A DNA stretch of 64,000 nucleotides from Bordetella ansorpii. GTDB lineage: Bacteria; Pseudomonadota; Gammaproteobacteria; Burkholderiales; Burkholderiaceae_B. The stretch is taken from assembly GCF_900078705.1 (NCBI RefSeq), contig NZ_FKIF01000008.1:310001-374000 (forward strand), in the 5' to 3' direction. The notes below the pieces were generated by a model. The model did not search any database, was not told the origin of the DNA, and saw only the letters and a program-made list of their open reading frames with translations. Shown here in pieces: positions 43,475 through 53,957 of the stretch. Numbering within the stretch: position 1 is the stretch's first letter; each line of letters starts with the position of its first letter. Made by a program: the position numbers and the translations under genes.

Positions 43475-43606
43475 TCCTCACCGGGGGTAGTCAAAAACGA
43501 CTACCCCCCCATGCCTTTTTCCCTTGGCGCATGCCGCGCCGGCTTCGATACTGTGTCCAGGCGCCATCTTTCACGAGCGCCGCCACGACATATCAAGGGA
43601 AAAAAC

Positions 43607-44575
43607 ATGCGTACTTCGACGGTGCTTCGCTCTCTATTCGCCTTTGGCCTGGCATTCAGCGGCGCCGCCGCCCATGCGCAATGGCCGGACCGGCCCATCC
43701 GCATCATCGTGCCGTCGGCCGCCGGCGGCAGCCCCGACATCATGTCGCGCCTGATCGGCAAGGCGCTGGGCGACCGGATCGGCCAGGCCGTGGTGATCGA
43801 GAACCGTCCCGGCGCTGGCGGCAACATCGGCATGCAGACGGTGATGAACGCCGCGCCCGACGGTTACACCATCGGCTACGGCAACAACGCCACGCTGGCC
43901 ACCAACCAGTTCCTGTTCAACACGCTGCCCTACGACCCCAAGAAGCTGGCGCCCGTCATCAAGCTGGCCACCACGGCCAGCCTCATGGTGGTCAACGACA
44001 GTTCGCCGATCAAGAGCGTGCAGGACCTGATCGCCTATGCGAAGAAGAAACCCGACGGCGTGGTGTTCGGCTCGGGCGGCACGGGCACGACCAGCCATCT
44101 GGGCGCGGAACTGTTCAAGACGATGACCGGCATCAAGGGCATGCACGTGCCGTACAAGGGCGCGCCCCAGGCCATCAACGACCTGCTGGGCAACCGCTTC
44201 GATTTCATGTTCGATAATATCGCCTCGGTCGGACCCAGCGTGCAGGGCGGCCGCCTGCGCGCCATCGCGGTCACGTCGAGCACGCGTTCGCCGCTGTTTC
44301 CCGACGTGCCCACGCTGGACGAGTCGGGCGTGAAGGGCTTCCAGATGGAGGCCTGGGGGGCGTTTGTGGCGCCGCCGGGCACGCCGGATGCCATCGTCGC
44401 ACGATTGAATACCGAACTCAATGCGGTGTTGAAAGACGAGCAGGTGCGCAAGCAACTGGCGCAACTGGCATTCGTTCCCACGGGCGGCACCCCGGCCGAC
44501 CTGCGCACGTGGATGGCGTCCGAGCGCGGGAAGTGGGGCAAGGTGGTGCGCGAGAGCGGCGCAAAGGTGGACTGA
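43607..44575 (+). CDS. Bug-type periplasmic substrate-binding protein (TctC family)
   Basis: A 322-residue protein with a signal peptide (cleavage after AHA). WPDRPIRIIVPSAAGGSPDI (mature N terminus) and VIENRPGAGGNIGMQTVMNA are the Bug signature, with the acid-binding loops. HVPYKGAPQAINDLLGNRFD and RLRAIAVTSSTRSPLFPDVP complete it. Bug proteins bind carboxylates and some amino acids for tripartite or other transport. It lies between a LysR gene and a D-amino-acid dehydrogenase gene, eight bases before the latter, so its ligand may be a D-amino acid or N-acyl derivative. Confidence 0.95.
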   Translation: MRTSTVLRSLFAFGLAFSGAAAHAQWPDRPIRIIVPSAAGGSPDIMSRLIGKALGDRIGQAVVIENRPGAGGNIGMQTVMNAAPDGYTIGYGNNATLATNQFLFNTLPYDPKKLAPVIKLATTASLMVVNDSSPIKSVQDLIAYAKKKPDGVVFGSGGTGTTSHLGAELFKTMTGIKGMHVPYKGAPQAINDLLGNRFDFMFDNIASVGPSVQGGRLRAIAVTSSTRSPLFPDVPTLDESGVKGFQMEAWGAFVAPPGTPDAIVARLNTELNAVLKDEQVRKQLAQLAFVPTGGTPADLRTWMASERGKWGKVVRESGAKVD

Positions 44576-44582
44576 CGCAGCG

Positions 44583-45887
44583 ATGACCGAGATGTTCCAA
44601 GCAGGCGGCGCCGCGCCGGATCGCGACGCCTATTGGCAAGTCCGGCCCGCCGGCGATGCGCGGGGCAGCACGCGCCACGTCACCGTCATCGGCGCGGGCA
44701 TCGTGGGCCTGGCCTCGGCCGCCGCGCTGGCGCGGGCAGGGCGCCCGGTGACGGTGCTGGATGCGGCTGCCGCGCCGGGCCTGGAAACCAGCCAGGGCAA
44801 CGGCTGCCAACTGTCGTATGGCTACGTGGCGCCCCTGGCGCAGCCGGGCGTGCTGGCCGAACTGCCGAGGCTGCTGTTCGCCAAGGGGGCGCCGCTGAAG
44901 CTGGTGCCGCGCTGGGACCCCGCGCAATGGCGTTGGCTGATGTCCTTTCTGGCCGCCTGCCGCGCGGACCGCGCCAGGGAAGGCTCGCTTGCCCTGCTGA
45001 TGCTGGGCCGGCTGAGCCACCAGGAAACCGATCTGTGGGTGCAGGGCTCGGATGCGCGGGCGCTGAGCTTCGCGCGCAGCGGCAAGCTTGTGGTGCTGCC
45101 CTCCGAAGCCGCCATGGCCAAGGCCCGGAGGCAACTGGAACTGCAGGCCCCGGTCGGTCCGCTGCAGCAGGCCTTGAGCGCCGATGAATGCCTGCGGCGC
45201 GAGCCCGCGCTGGAGCGATTCCGCTCACGCATGGCCGGCGCCATCCACACCCCCAGCGAGTGCGCCGTCGACAGCGAGGCGCTGTGCGCCGACCTGAGAA
45301 CCCGTCTGGAGCAGCGCGGCGTGCGGTTCGAGTTCGGCACGCGTGTGCAGGGCTTTCGCCGCCACCGGAACGGCCGTGTCACGCATCTGGTCACCGGGCA
45401 GGGCGCGCGCGAGGTCGAGGACGTCGTGCTGGCCACCGGCCCGCACAGCGCGGCCATGGCGCGCATGCTGGGTTTCGCCGTGCCGGTGTATCCCCTGAAA
45501 GGCTACAGCATCACCGCGCCGATTCTCGATCCGCATGCCGTGCCGCGCGCCAGTGTGACGGATGCCGCGCGCAAAGTGGTGTATGCCCGCCTCGGCCAGC
45601 GGCTGCGCGTGGCGGGCGTGGTCGAGATCCGCGGCTACGACCGGCGGCTGGACGCATCGCGCATCGACGAACTGGTGGCGCACACGCGCGAGGCCTTCGG
45701 CGACGCGGTGGACCTGGAGTCGGTCACGCCCTGGATGGGATTGCGGCCCGCCACGCCGACCTCGGTGCCCATCATCGGCAGGTCGCCTGTGGATAACGTG
45801 TTTCTCAATATCGGGCAGGGCGCGCTGGGCCTGACCCTGGCGTTCGGATCCGCCAGCCGCCTGGCCGACGCGATGGCCGCGGCGTAG
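44583..45887 (+). CDS. FAD-dependent D-amino-acid dehydrogenase-like oxidoreductase
   Basis: A 434-residue protein. VTVIGAGIVGLASAAALARA (34-53) is the FAD-binding Rossmann motif. ETSQGNGCQLSYGYVAPLAQ and the C-terminal LRPATPTSVPIIGRSPVDNV followed by LNIGQGALGLTLAFGSAS match DadA-type D-amino-acid dehydrogenases. The enzyme would oxidise D-amino acids to 2-oxo acids and ammonia with electron transfer to the respiratory chain. It has a 30-residue N-terminal extension before the FAD fold. It stands between Bug and D-aminoacylase genes, which gives a coherent pathway. Confidence 0.9.
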   Translation: MTEMFQAGGAAPDRDAYWQVRPAGDARGSTRHVTVIGAGIVGLASAAALARAGRPVTVLDAAAAPGLETSQGNGCQLSYGYVAPLAQPGVLAELPRLLFAKGAPLKLVPRWDPAQWRWLMSFLAACRADRAREGSLALLMLGRLSHQETDLWVQGSDARALSFARSGKLVVLPSEAAMAKARRQLELQAPVGPLQQALSADECLRREPALERFRSRMAGAIHTPSECAVDSEALCADLRTRLEQRGVRFEFGTRVQGFRRHRNGRVTHLVTGQGAREVEDVVLATGPHSAAMARMLGFAVPVYPLKGYSITAPILDPHAVPRASVTDAARKVVYARLGQRLRVAGVVEIRGYDRRLDASRIDELVAHTREAFGDAVDLESVTPWMGLRPATPTSVPIIGRSPVDNVFLNIGQGALGLTLAFGSASRLADAMAAA

Positions 45888-45922
45888 CGGCGACGCGTCT
45901 CAAGGCCCACACAACATCGGGA

Positions 45923-47392
45923 ATGGACATGAGCACCTCGCAGAAGTATGACCTGCTGATCGTCGGCGGCACCGTCATCGACGGCACGCGCCGGCCGCGT
46001 TTCGACGCCGACGTCGGCGTGAAGGATGGCCGCATCGTGGCGGTGGGGGATCTGTCCGGCCATGACGCGGACCTCGTCCTGCCCGCGCACGGCAAGATCG
46101 TGGCGCCGGGCTTCATCGATTCGCACACGCACGACGACCAGGCCGTGCTGACCCAGCCCGACATGCCCTTCAAGGTGTCGCAAGGAGTCGCCACGGTCGT
46201 CACGGGCAACTGCGGCATCAGCCTGGCGCCCTTGCGCGCCGACGCCGCACTGCCGTCGCCGCTGAACCTGCTGGAAGCGGATGGCGGCGAGCGCTTCCCC
46301 ACCTTCCGCGCCTATGTCGACGCGCTGCGCGCGCGCCCGGCGGCGGTCAACGTGGTGCCCATGGTGGGACATACCACCTTGCGCGTGATGGCCATGCAGG
46401 ACCTGGACCGCGCGGCCACCGAGCCGGAGGTGCGGGCCATGCGGGCGCTGCTGCAGGAGGCGCTCGATGCCGGCGCGGTGGGCATGTCCACCGGCACCTA
46501 CTATCCGCCCGCCGCCGCGGCCACGACACAGGAGGTGGTCGAGGTGTCGCGTCCGCTGGCGGCGAAGCAGGCGCTGTACGTCACCCACATGCGCAACGAG
46601 GCCGACCGCTGCATGGAGTCGCTGGAAGAGACCTTCTCCATCGGCCGGGAAGTGGACACGCCGGTGCTCGTGTCGCATCACAAGCTGATGCGCGAGGCCA
46701 ACTTCGGCAAGTCGGTGCAGACGCTCCAGCGCATCGAGCAGGCCATGCGCTGCCAGTGCGTCAGCCTGGACTGTTATCCCTACACCGCCAGTTCCACCAT
46801 GCTGCACCTTGACGAGGAGCGCCTGCAGGGCAAGGTGGTGATCGCTTCCAGCGGCGCGTTTCCCGGCATGCAGGGACGCGACCTGCAGGACATTGCCGAC
46901 GAGTGGGGCGTGTCCCGCGTCGAGGCCTCGCGCCGCCTGCAGCCGGCCAGCGCCATCTACTACAGCATGGACGAGCAGGACGTGCAGCGCATCCTGGCGT
47001 TCGAGCCCACGATGATCGGTTCCGACGGCATCCCTTCGGGCGACCGTCCGCATCCGCGGTTGTGGGGCACGTTCCCGCGCGTGCTGGGGCGCTACAGCCG
47101 CGACATCGGGCTGTTCCCGCTGGAGACCGCGGTGTGGAAGATGACGGGGCTGACGGCGGGCGTGTTCGGCCTGGAAGGGCGCGGCGTGATTGCCGAAGGG
47201 CATCACGCGGACATCACCATCTTCGATGCCGAGACGGTGCACGATACGGCGGACTACGACAATCCCATGCGGCCGGCGCGCGGCATCGAGGCGGTGGTGG
47301 TCAATGGGGCGGTGGCGTATCGCGATGGCGAGCATCTGCATACGCGCTCGGGGGCGGTGCTGGGGCGTATGCCGGGACGGGCGCAAGGCTAG
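45923..47392 (+). CDS. N-acyl-D-amino-acid deacylase (D-aminoacylase)
   Basis: A 489-residue amidohydrolase. DLLIVGGTVIDGTRRPRFDA and GRIVAVGDLSG form the small beta domain. GKIVAPGFIDSHTHDD (58-72) is metal motif I, and TVVTGNCGIS includes the cysteine metal ligand of D-aminoacylases. Later come YVTHMRNEADRCMESLEETF, TMIGSDGIPSGDRPHPRLWG and the C-terminal ADITIFDAETVHDTADY block. It splits N-acyl-D-amino acids into acid and D-amino acid, the substrate of the upstream dehydrogenase. It may start at 45923 or at the Met at 45929. Confidence 0.93.
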   Translation: MDMSTSQKYDLLIVGGTVIDGTRRPRFDADVGVKDGRIVAVGDLSGHDADLVLPAHGKIVAPGFIDSHTHDDQAVLTQPDMPFKVSQGVATVVTGNCGISLAPLRADAALPSPLNLLEADGGERFPTFRAYVDALRARPAAVNVVPMVGHTTLRVMAMQDLDRAATEPEVRAMRALLQEALDAGAVGMSTGTYYPPAAAATTQEVVEVSRPLAAKQALYVTHMRNEADRCMESLEETFSIGREVDTPVLVSHHKLMREANFGKSVQTLQRIEQAMRCQCVSLDCYPYTASSTMLHLDEERLQGKVVIASSGAFPGMQGRDLQDIADEWGVSRVEASRRLQPASAIYYSMDEQDVQRILAFEPTMIGSDGIPSGDRPHPRLWGTFPRVLGRYSRDIGLFPLETAVWKMTGLTAGVFGLEGRGVIAEGHHADITIFDAETVHDTADYDNPMRPARGIEAVVVNGAVAYRDGEHLHTRSGAVLGRMPGRAQG

Positions 47393-50709: not shown

Positions 50710-51741
50710 CTACTTCGCCGGCCGGTACTTGAACGACGCCCGGATGATGCCGTGGTCGTTGGTGCCGCTGGTCTTGTGGTTGTCGAAGTTCAGGTGATCG
50801 TTGTTGACCAGCATGCCGTCGAACATCCAGATGCGCTTGCGGCTGTGGTCGTAGAACTCCTGGCTGACCAGGATCTGGTCCAGTGACTCGCGCTGGTCCT
50901 GGAAGACGTGGGTGTAGTAGACGTCCCGCGTGTCCCGATACTCTTGCAGGGTTTGCGCGGTGTACAGCGCCACGTCGCCGCCGCCCTGCGCATCGCCCAT
51001 CAGATAACGCGGCTGCCCGGTCAGGATGTTGGCCGTGTTGCTGTGCTGGTCGTCGTTGATGTCGCCCAGCACCACCACCGGCACGTCGGTGTTCTTCAAC
51101 TGTTCGGTCAGCAGGTAGCGCAGCGCGGCCGCCTCGGCGGTACGGCGAATGGTGGACAGCGCATTGCCCAAGGCGTTGCCGTGCTTGGCGTAATGCGTCT
51201 TGTCGGCCTTGTACCAGCCTTCGTTGTAGACCTCGGTGGGCCGCTTGGACTTCAGGTGGCACACGTAGAAGTGCACGTCGGGGCTTTTGTCGTGGGGGCG
51301 CGCCACGAAATGCAGCACGGGCCGCGAGAAGCCCGAGATGTTCACCTCGATCAGCGGGGTCTGCGGATCGTCGCCCTGCGACTGCAGGATGAAGCCCTCG
51401 GGGAAGTCCTCGATCCAGTCCGGTTCGCCCACCAGCAGGCCGCGGCGCACGATGGCGGCGCAGACGATCTTGCCGCCATCGGCATCCGCGGGCGTCAGCA
51501 CGTCGTACTGGTCGGTGGCCTCGATGCGTTCGAGGGCATCCGTCAGCGCCTGGGCGTGCCAGAGCTCCTGGAAACCGAACACGTCGGCCTGCATCAGGCC
51601 GATCTGGTGGGCCGTCCAGGCGATCTTCATGTCGTACTGCGCCTGCGACCAGCCATCCTTGTCCGTGTCGTAGATCGGCAGGCCGGGCAGGTTCAGGTTG
51701 TACAGATTGAACGTGGCGATATGGAACGTCGAGAGATTCAT
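50710..51741 (-). CDS. Endonuclease/exonuclease/phosphatase family protein
   Basis: A 343-residue protein. FHIATFNLYNLNLPG (Asn of the active site), VFGFQELWHAQALTDAL (metal-binding Glu), FYVCHLKSKRPTEV (His), VVVLGDINDDQHSNTANIL (D-x-N) and TSGTNDHGIIRASFKY (Asp-His) are the family motifs in order, all present. It should be an active metal-dependent phosphodiesterase or nuclease. There is no signal peptide, so it acts in the cytoplasm. It is a single gene, convergent with the glycosyltransferase. Confidence 0.9.
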   Translation of the reverse strand: MNLSTFHIATFNLYNLNLPGLPIYDTDKDGWSQAQYDMKIAWTAHQIGLMQADVFGFQELWHAQALTDALERIEATDQYDVLTPADADGGKIVCAAIVRRGLLVGEPDWIEDFPEGFILQSQGDDPQTPLIEVNISGFSRPVLHFVARPHDKSPDVHFYVCHLKSKRPTEVYNEGWYKADKTHYAKHGNALGNALSTIRRTAEAAALRYLLTEQLKNTDVPVVVLGDINDDQHSNTANILTGQPRYLMGDAQGGGDVALYTAQTLQEYRDTRDVYYTHVFQDQRESLDQILVSQEFYDHSRKRIWMFDGMLVNNDHLNFDNHKTSGTNDHGIIRASFKYRPAK

Positions 51742-51957
51742 GGCGGGCTCCGGGGTGGACCGCGTTCGAATCTAGTGCCGGCATATGACAGAAGGAATGC
51801 GTGAAATAACAGGAAAAACAATTGGAAATAAGTGACGTTGCCAGAAGATGCGCTGGGGGTGTCATTATGCGAATTCCGCTCAAGTTAAAGACAAACCCAA
51901 TTCACGCTGTTTTTCATATAAAGCTCGGTCGTCCTCTTTCCCCTGCCCGGAGTTGCC

Positions 51958-52998
51958 ATGTCCCCGTTGTTGCCCACTACGCTGGTCGGTTCGTATGCCC
52001 AGCCGGAATGGCTGATCGATCGCAAGCGCTTAGGCGACCGCTTCCCGCCGCGCGTGCGTGCCCAGGAACTGTGGCGCGTGGCTCCCGAACTGCTGGAAGA
52101 AGCGCAGGACGATGCCACGCTGCTGGCGATCCGCGCGCAGGAAGAGGCCGGCCTGGACATCGTGACCGATGGCGAAGTGCGCCGCGAGAGCTACTCCAAC
52201 CGCTTCGCCACCGCCCTGGAAGGCGTGGATATCGACAACCCCGGCTCGGCGCTGGACCGCAGCGGCCATCCCAACCCGGTGCCGCGCGTGGTCGGCAAGA
52301 TCCGCCGCAAGCATGCGGTGCAGGTGCGCGACGTGCAGTTCCTGCGCGCCCATACCGACCGCCAGATCAAGATCACGGTGCCCGGCCCGTTCACCATGGC
52401 CCAGCAGGCGCAGAACGATTTCTACGCCTCGGAAGCCGAGATGGCCATGGATTACGCCGAGGCCGTCAACGCCGAGATCCGCGACATGTTCGCGGCCGGC
52501 GCCGACGTGGTGCAGATCGACGAGCCCTATATGCAGGCGCGCCCCGAGAAGGCCCGCGAATACGGCGTGGAAGTGCTGAACCGCGCGCTGGAAGGCGTCA
52601 CTGGCCGCACCGCCGTGCACATCTGCTTCGGGTATGCCGCCGTCATCCACGCGCGTCCGAACGGCTACTCGTTCCTGCCCGAGCTGTGCGGCTGCAAGGC
52701 GCACCAGATCTCCATCGAGACGGCCCAGTCGAACCTGGACTGCTCGGTGCTGGAATCGCTGTCCAACAAGGAAATCATGCTGGGCGTGCTGGACCTGTCG
52801 ACCCATGAGATCGAGCAGCCCGAGGCGGTGGCCGCGCGCATCCGCCGCGCGCTGCCGTACGTGGCGCCCGAGCGCCTGATCATCGCGCCCGACTGCGGCC
52901 TGAAGTATCTGCCGCGCGACGTGGCCTTCGGCAAGATGAAGGCGATGGTCGAGGGCGCGAAGATCGTGCGTGCCGAACTTGCCGTGCGCCTGGCCTGA
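51958..52998 (+). CDS. Short MetE-like protein (cobalamin-independent methionine synthase family, C-terminal domain)
   Basis: A 346-residue protein. LLPTTLVGSYAQPEWL begins the barrel. IVTDGEVRRESYSNRFA, TVPGPFTMAQQ, and VVQIDEPYM (Asp-Glu-Pro at 188-190) follow. The zinc ligands His221-x-Cys223 (AVHICFGYA), Glu254 (ISIETAQSNL) and Cys313 (APDCGLKYLPR) are all present. It has only the catalytic half of MetE (about 750 residues), like archaeal core methionine synthases and 5-methyltetrahydropteroyl-type demethylases. It may transfer a methyl group to homocysteine or act on another thiol. A Bug receptor gene follows two bases later, so the two are one operon. Confidence 0.88.
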   Translation: MSPLLPTTLVGSYAQPEWLIDRKRLGDRFPPRVRAQELWRVAPELLEEAQDDATLLAIRAQEEAGLDIVTDGEVRRESYSNRFATALEGVDIDNPGSALDRSGHPNPVPRVVGKIRRKHAVQVRDVQFLRAHTDRQIKITVPGPFTMAQQAQNDFYASEAEMAMDYAEAVNAEIRDMFAAGADVVQIDEPYMQARPEKAREYGVEVLNRALEGVTGRTAVHICFGYAAVIHARPNGYSFLPELCGCKAHQISIETAQSNLDCSVLESLSNKEIMLGVLDLSTHEIEQPEAVAARIRRALPYVAPERLIIAPDCGLKYLPRDVAFGKMKAMVEGAKIVRAELAVRLA

Positions 52999-53000
52999 CC

Positions 53001-53957
53001 ATGATCCGCAGACTATTCGCCTTGTCCCTGGCGATGCTGCCATGCCTGGCCGCGGCGCAGGATTTTCCCACGCACCCCATCACCATCGTGGTGCCCGTGC
53101 CGCCCGGCGGGATCGTCGACCTGGCCGCGCGCCTGGCCAGCGAGCCGCTGTCCACCCACCTGGGCCAGCCGGTCGTCATCGACAACCGCGCGGGGGCCAG
53201 CGGCAACATCGCCTATGCCATGGTGGCGGGCGCGCAGCCCGACGGCTACACGCTGCTGGCCTCGTACTCGATGTACCACGTGGGCAATCCCTCGATGTTC
53301 ACCAACCTGCGCTGGACGTCCGGATCGTTCAAGCCGGTGGGCATGGTGGCCGTGTCGCCGCACGTGGTCACGGTGCATCCGTCGCTGCCGGTGCACAACC
53401 TGAAAGAGCTGGTGGCCTACGCCAAGTCCCATCCAGGCGAGGTCAACTACGCCTCGCAGGGCAGCGGCTCGGTGCCGCACGTGGGTACGGAACTGCTGAA
53501 GCAGATGACGGGCACGGACATGGTGCACGTGCCGTACAAAGGCTCGGGCCCCGCCATCCAGGACGTGCTGTCCGGCCGCGTCCAGCTGTTCGTGACGACG
53601 CCGCCGTCGGTGATCGGCCACATCCAGATGGGCAGGCTGCGCGCCATCGCGGTCGCCGGCCGCGAACGCCATCCGATGATCCCGGACGTGCCCACGGCTG
53701 CCGAACAAGGCTATCCCGGCTTCGAACTCGACGCCTGGGTCTCGCTGTTCGCACCGGCCGGCACGCCCGACGCCGTGGTCAGCAAGATCAGCGCGGCGCT
53801 GGAAGAGGGCTTGAAGAAGCCCGAGATCATCAAGACGGCGGAAGAGGCGGGGGTACGCGTCAACTATGAGAACCCGGAAAAGTTGGGCGAAACCGTTGCC
53901 CGCGACACCGCGCATTGGTCGCAGGTGATCAAGTCGGCGAACATCACGGTGAATTGA
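53001..53957 (+). CDS. Bug-type periplasmic substrate-binding protein (TctC family)
   Basis: A 318-residue protein with a signal peptide (MIRRLFALSLAMLPCLAAAQ). DFPTHPITIVVPVPPGGIVD and VVIDNRAGASGNIAYAMVAG are Bug signatures. HVPYKGSGPAIQDVLSGRVQ and RLRAIAVAGRERHPMIPDVP complete the fold. It is co-transcribed with the short MetE-like gene, so its ligand could be a methylated or sulfur compound (inference from context only). It is clearly different from the other Bug protein at 43607-44575. Confidence 0.94.
   Translation: MIRRLFALSLAMLPCLAAAQDFPTHPITIVVPVPPGGIVDLAARLASEPLSTHLGQPVVIDNRAGASGNIAYAMVAGAQPDGYTLLASYSMYHVGNPSMFTNLRWTSGSFKPVGMVAVSPHVVTVHPSLPVHNLKELVAYAKSHPGEVNYASQGSGSVPHVGTELLKQMTGTDMVHVPYKGSGPAIQDVLSGRVQLFVTTPPSVIGHIQMGRLRAIAVAGRERHPMIPDVPTAAEQGYPGFELDAWVSLFAPAGTPDAVVSKISAALEEGLKKPEIIKTAEEAGVRVNYENPEKLGETVARDTAHWSQVIKSANITVN

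Follow-up and report, generated by a model that had tools for sequence, protein, structure and literature searches.

The window, the whole stretch of 64,000 nucleotides that was analysed, carries a gene for a core-only MetE-family methyltransferase, here called CORE, which by sequence comparison is a clade separate from MesD within a known kind, the core-only MetE enzymes with unusual methyl donors; the comparison took in MesD, MetE and the NCBIfam models. We propose that CORE would act as a zinc-dependent homocysteine S-methyltransferase serving methyl salvage in the catabolism of an imported compound, not housekeeping methionine synthesis, a reading we prefer but hold tentatively, at somewhat short of even confidence. 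A literature search of open-access full texts returned no description of the CORE clade or its operons.

CORE is a 346 residue open reading frame on the plus strand (51958-52998) with an ATG start, preceded at five bases by what reads as a likely ribosome-binding site, GGAG (51949-51952, plus strand). Pfam assigns residues 5 to 335 to the catalytic domain PF01717 (125.9 bits, cutoff 21), with a weaker match to the related URO-D family (36.1 bits), and at E ≤ 0.001 finds no N-terminal MetE domain (PF08267), confirming the initial annotation that this half of MetE is absent. The four zinc ligands it had named are likewise all present, His221 (52618-52620), Cys223 (52624-52626), Glu254 (52717-52719) and Cys313 (52894-52896), as the codons agree and the residues align with those of the MetE and MesD encoded in the same genome. 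Three further residues align with positions that hold homocysteine in MetE: Ser12 (51991-51993) with the homocysteine-carboxylate serine (E. coli Ser433, Ser22 in 3RPD), and Glu73 (52174-52176) and Asp188 (52519-52521) with the homocysteine-amino glutamate and aspartate (E. coli Glu484 and Asp599). PMC7857596 assigns these MetE residues to homocysteine binding.

Among 116 distinct CORE relatives of at least 55% identity, His221, Cys223 and Glu254 are kept in all 116 and Cys313 in 115, the exception being one R, while Glu73 and Asp188 are again kept in 116 and Ser12 in 115 (one gap); in total 103 of the 346 positions are conserved at 98% or more. This conservation makes it very likely that CORE activates homocysteine on zinc. 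Retention of Ser12, Glu73 and Asp188 favours homocysteine as the acceptor, and a special compound is therefore more likely to be the methyl donor than the thiol. The best solved match is 3rpd, both by sequence (E 2.7e-56) and by the fold of a CORE structure model of mean pLDDT 83.1 (TMq 0.87, 34% identity); according to PMC7857596, 3rpd is a MesD protein with selenomethionine bound.

With MesD (ACIAD3523 type; 3RPD; PRK09121) CORE shares the core-only MetE fold, the zinc ligands, the homocysteine residues and an occurrence in aerobic proteobacteria, but it was rejected as a MesD on identity, family cutoff, the want of an adjoining MesX and tree position. It scores 264 bits against NCBIfam PRK09121, where the cutoff is 392. 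Its identity to the MesD encoded in the same genome is 37%, with about 222 bits to that MesD and its kin, the MesD proteins compared; these values lie below the MesD threshold of about 55% identity/390 BLASTP bits given in PMC7857596. MesX (PF08908) is not beside CORE, the single copy in the genome lying on another contig where it adjoins the true MesD, and it is missing from 36 of 41 CORE-bearing genomes. In a tree of 50 rows drawn from sampled groups CORE forms one group (26 rows, support 93/96) and MesD another (11 rows, 99/99), the two being sisters at 89/85. Four loci (L054, L067, L080 and L114) have a tandem pair of CORE-type genes, the second of which falls in a separate branch of the clade.

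MetE was also rejected, as CORE shares its catalytic C-terminal half, zinc site and homocysteine residues but has no N-terminal folate half, and scores 111 bits against TIGR01371 where the cutoff is 930. CORE likewise stays under the NCBIfam cutoffs of PRK04326 (256.7 of 406 bits) and PRK00957 (122.9 of 258), which we take to be models for MesA/split MetE. The enzymes MesA, MesB, MesC and the split MetE of anaerobes and archaea are, like CORE, core-only, with no folate domain in the same chain, as described in PMC7857596; their hosts are anaerobes and archaea whereas the CORE host has an aerobic-type gene set, and MesB and MesC are compared here by description. Likened to CORE by description, too, is the Mes-like protein PGA1_c27430 of Phaeobacter inhibens, a core-only MetE relative in a proteobacterium (PMC12366255). 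DMSP was considered from this source as a CORE donor and set aside, as the P. inhibens mes-like mutant described there kept the shortening of lag by DMSP.

The genome that carries CORE (6.2 Mb, with the window on its contig C8) encodes besides it a full MetE, MetH and, side by side, MesD and MesX, and a housekeeping methionine synthase role for CORE is therefore unlikely. The same redundancy is seen across 41 CORE-bearing genomes, two of which (G023 and G356) appear to be one genome: the MetH activation domain is found in 38, the N-terminal domain of full-length MetE in 19 and MesX in five, and 39 have MetH or full MetE (the 38 with MetH and one more with full MetE). Matches of at least 60% identity to CORE occur in 12 of 101 sampled relatives, its own genome included, those at 37-41% identity being MesD-type; within the order, 300 genomes yielded 20 with a match at E ≤ 1e-110. 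A scan of species genomes gave at least 571 CORE relatives among 596 candidate stretches, the best 80 of which have 75-99% identity and come mostly from alpha- and betaproteobacteria, plus MAGs labelled otherwise; the leading Bordetella ansorpii locus matches the gene at 99%. Four of 220 plasmid records with a CORE match exceed 60% identity (Aminobacter, Nonomuraea and two of Roseomonas type), and relatives are annotated as uroporphyrinogen decarboxylase family. Given this patchy presence and the other synthases in the same genomes, CORE is an accessory gene, mostly without MesX in the host genome.

The host genome also has a fourth PF01717 protein. On contig C2 (859540-860277; L004:811-2319) a 502 residue protein combines a PF01717 half with a preceding N-terminal region weakly similar to TusA (18.6 bits, under the 28.6 cutoff), and from these matches it is possibly a sulfurtransferase-MetE fusion.

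Redundancy bears directly on the strongest alternative, in which CORE would be a conventional methionine synthase that works without folate and represents a fifth Mes family. Its methyl groups would be supplied inside the cell by methylcobalamin, by a corrinoid protein or by an unknown partner, and its Bug and catabolic neighbours would be incidental or only co-regulated. We judge this unlikely, though a serious contender. Its zinc and homocysteine residues are as in MetE and MesD, methylcobalamin serves the core synthases MesA and MesB in vitro according to PMC7857596, CORE is highly conserved over differing gene contexts, and a Cys/Met PLP-enzyme gene lies near CORE in three loci (L069, L156 and L163). 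Against it stand the patchy presence of CORE, its redundancy with MetE, MetH and MesD, and its tight operons with catabolic genes.

The operon in the window consists of only two genes, CORE and, on the same strand, a gene for a 318 residue Bug/TctC periplasmic solute-binding protein (53001-53957), flanked by an endonuclease-family gene and a chemotaxis-type region. The start of the Bug gene two bases past the CORE stop is as initially annotated, and 53957, the end given for that finding, is the end of the Bug gene and not of CORE. Promoter and terminator scans found none on the operon strand and one promoter-like and one terminator-like site on the minus strand, and an Rfam scan of 51700-52100 for an upstream methionine or B12 riboswitch gave only a sub-threshold match to an animal lncRNA (12.4 of 55 bits). 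The Bug protein matches PF03401 over residues 43 to 314 (242.8 bits), a domain shared at full length with its solved relatives, of which the terephthalate-binding protein 8hka is nearest (228.7 bits), followed by Bug27 (208 bits) and BugD (197.5 bits). Having a terephthalate binder as nearest solved protein gives a weak hint that the ligand may be an aromatic acid.

To call the Bug protein CORE's own dedicated receptor, as had been claimed, goes further than the genomes show. Eight Alcaligenaceae loci (L038, L039, L040, L042, L046, L049, L122 and L123) do carry an orthologous Bug gene (73-94% identical) at a distance of 2-83 bases behind CORE, although the genes around the pair differ among them, and to this extent the partnership stands. 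Carriers of the pair include the Achromobacter Root83 and Pollutimonas types. Against exclusivity, the genome has 135 TctC matches in its 6.2 Mb, which makes adjacency to some Bug gene weak evidence alone, and a chance Bug neighbour would be plausible at about 2% per gene. Nor does a TctA permease lie alongside, as in a tripartite tricarboxylate transport operon: the genome has five TctA matches, none beside the CORE-Bug pair and the nearest on contig C8 about 61 kb away. Five Alcaligenaceae-type loci (L059, L077, L082, L083 and L125) have no linked Bug gene close by, nor does L044, and in L043 and L127 a less similar Bug gene is upstream of CORE.

In other genomes CORE often adjoins genes of uptake and catabolism. 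Plasmid pUSP2 of Aminobacter MSH1 carries a row of IclR, a TRAP transporter, a CocE/NonD hydrolase, CORE, citryl-CoA lyase, a CaiB CoA-transferase and an extradiol dioxygenase; starting at the TRAP large permease, adjacent genes are separated by 1-17 bases. Two Roseomonas-type plasmids share one row, of TctC, intradiol dioxygenase, a branched-chain-type ABC transporter, an oxidoreductase, an NTF2-like protein and CORE, while loci of Variovorax, Mesorhizobium, Erythrobacter and Neorhizobium have other gene mixes. Some Rhizobiales-type loci have a YdiJ-like FAD/Fe-S dehydrogenase directly upstream of CORE, plus a BhcA-like aminotransferase.

A search within 8 kb of CORE found CaiB together with citryl-CoA lyase at 24 of 84 loci, compared with none of 38 random stretches and none of 20 MesD loci. 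Ring cleavage was represented, by a dioxygenase of the intradiol, LigB or gentisate type, at 25 of the 84, compared with two of the 38 random stretches and none of the 20 MesD loci. The pair and the dioxygenase occur together in 14 of the 84 loci, either in 35 and neither in 49. The 84 loci are related to one another and their counts are not independent, 18 of the windows are shorter than 12 kb at contig ends, and the query proteins of the search came from CORE loci themselves; the random stretches come from CORE genomes, partly from contigs holding an intradiol dioxygenase gene, and four are under 19 kb. Neither ring cleavage nor the CaiB-lyase pair was found in any of 28 usable further Burkholderiales loci of the CORE clade, a set of 29 from which L130 was dropped (its gene is MesD-like) and in which L124 repeats L082.

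The initial annotation had suggested an external methyl donor or thiol. The unlikely housekeeping role, the conserved CORE-Bug pair and the uptake and catabolic genes beside its relatives support an external compound, but the homocysteine-type residues favour a donor over a thiol, and from these sequence features the imported compound or its breakdown product is probably the donor and homocysteine the acceptor. In the methyl salvage we propose, Bug would bind an organic acid in the periplasm and deliver it to a TctAB-type permease encoded elsewhere in the genome. Zinc held by His221, Cys223, Glu254 and Cys313 would activate the thiol of homocysteine, itself positioned by Ser12, Glu73 and Asp188, roles suggested by the MetE and MesD structures. 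The thiolate would then be methylated at the expense of the imported compound or of an intermediate in its breakdown, so that methionine is formed and a demethylated acid is left; the latter would enter central catabolism, in relatives perhaps through ring cleavage, CoA-transferase and citryl-CoA lyase, as their neighbouring genes suggest. The folate domain, observed to be absent, would have no part in this reaction, and the rarity of MesX among CORE genomes suggests independence of that protein too. Against methyl salvage, the neighbour contexts are heterogeneous across loci, the operon in the window holds just two genes, and the many TctC matches make a chance Bug neighbour plausible; high conservation of CORE over these differing operons is more easily explained by a single shared donor than by many substrates.

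A more specific proposal is that CORE is a zinc/homocysteine demethylase acting directly on a methoxylated aromatic acid or quinol, or on a ring-cleavage product, without tetrahydrofolate, cobalamin, MesX or oxygen. This seems improbable to us, mainly because the conservation of CORE argues against a broad aromatic O-demethylase. Were the donor an aromatic methoxy group, the tetrahydrofolate-dependent O-demethylases LigM and DesA of Sphingobium SYK-6 would be functional analogues of CORE. They are not of its family, CORE being a PF01717 MetE TIM barrel with a zinc site whose nearest folds are MetE-type, whereas LigM and DesA have another fold. A 459 residue protein near CORE (L071:7576-8955; also in L053 and L076) was considered as a LigM/DesA-type O-demethylase and rejected as evidence: it has no Pfam match to E 1, no NCBIfam match to 0.01, no solved relative of note and no plasmid match.

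Also improbable is another zinc-thiol catabolic reaction that makes no methionine, either thiol addition to an electrophilic intermediate or a URO-D-like decarboxylation. Epoxyalkane:coenzyme M transferase adds a thiol to an electrophilic substrate in this manner, CORE operons do contain hydrolases and dioxygenases, and both the URO-D match of CORE and the uroporphyrinogen decarboxylase annotation of relatives point the same way. The residues that in MetE and MesD hold the amino-acid end of homocysteine (Ser12, Glu73 and Asp188) are, however, all but invariant, and the closest fold is that of a methionine-bound enzyme, with URO-D far lower in the ranking (TMq about 0.6).

Two loci, L053 and L071, encode close to CORE a relative of 7xg9 (E 8.3e-64 in L071), a methylenetetrahydrofolate reductase of known structure that is presumably from Sphingobium SYK-6; the two relatives are 66% identical to each other, and in L071 a formate-THF ligase follows. 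SYK-6 itself has metF and ligH in an operon with the O-demethylase gene ligM, according to PMC6888825. Weaker relatives of this MetF (35-39%) also occur near MesD, in four of 20 loci, and the MetF link is therefore not special to CORE and only a soft hint. Such genes would suit the idea of CORE as a pared-down MetE that has kept methyltetrahydrofolate as its donor, acting by itself or together with an N-terminal half supplied by another protein, but we consider this very improbable, given their presence near MesD as well, the lack of PF08267 in CORE, the lack of any separate N-terminal half among the listed neighbours, and an own-genome PF08267 search that matched only the MetE gene.

The methyl source of each core-only MetE enzyme is described as an open question in PMC7857596. 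CORE adds a further core-only group beside MesD, with an intact active site and mostly without MesX, and since the genes in its operons suggest particular catabolic substrates, the question of the donor becomes testable with defined clusters, the Aminobacter plasmid row among them. If the donor were an aromatic methoxy group, CORE would provide an added, cofactor-light route of O-demethylation useful in lignin conversion. Direct demethylation, should it prove true, would be a route unlike those of Rieske, P450 and LigM/DesA enzymes, taking lignin-type methoxy groups straight to methionine.

Several further gene arrangements were seen around CORE and elsewhere in the genome. A second MetE-like protein (390 residues) is encoded near CORE in 15 of the 84 loci; in L057, L062, L063, L065, L078, L094 and L099 a distant MetE-like gene of about this length directly follows CORE, and most of these seven have a TonB receptor, WrbA and a glyoxalase-fold protein nearby. 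A nicotinate-phosphoribosyltransferase-like gene lies 4 to about 110 bases upstream of CORE in three loci (L069:8773-9993, L156:1455-2675 and L163:8079-9377), the same three in which the Cys/Met PLP-enzyme gene lies further downstream on the other strand. Contig C6 of the host genome (about 1,139,400-1,142,600; L236) carries a row of CaiB CoA-transferase, citryl-CoA lyase and Bug genes next to a divergently oriented LysR-like gene; the row corresponds to the module that accompanies CORE in other genera, but CORE itself is missing from it. Within the window, a row at 43511-47392 comprises genes for a Bug protein, for a D-amino-acid dehydrogenase (398 bits to PRK00711, where the cutoff is 383) and for an amidohydrolase, and by these matches suggests the breakdown of D-amino acids served by a binding protein of its own.
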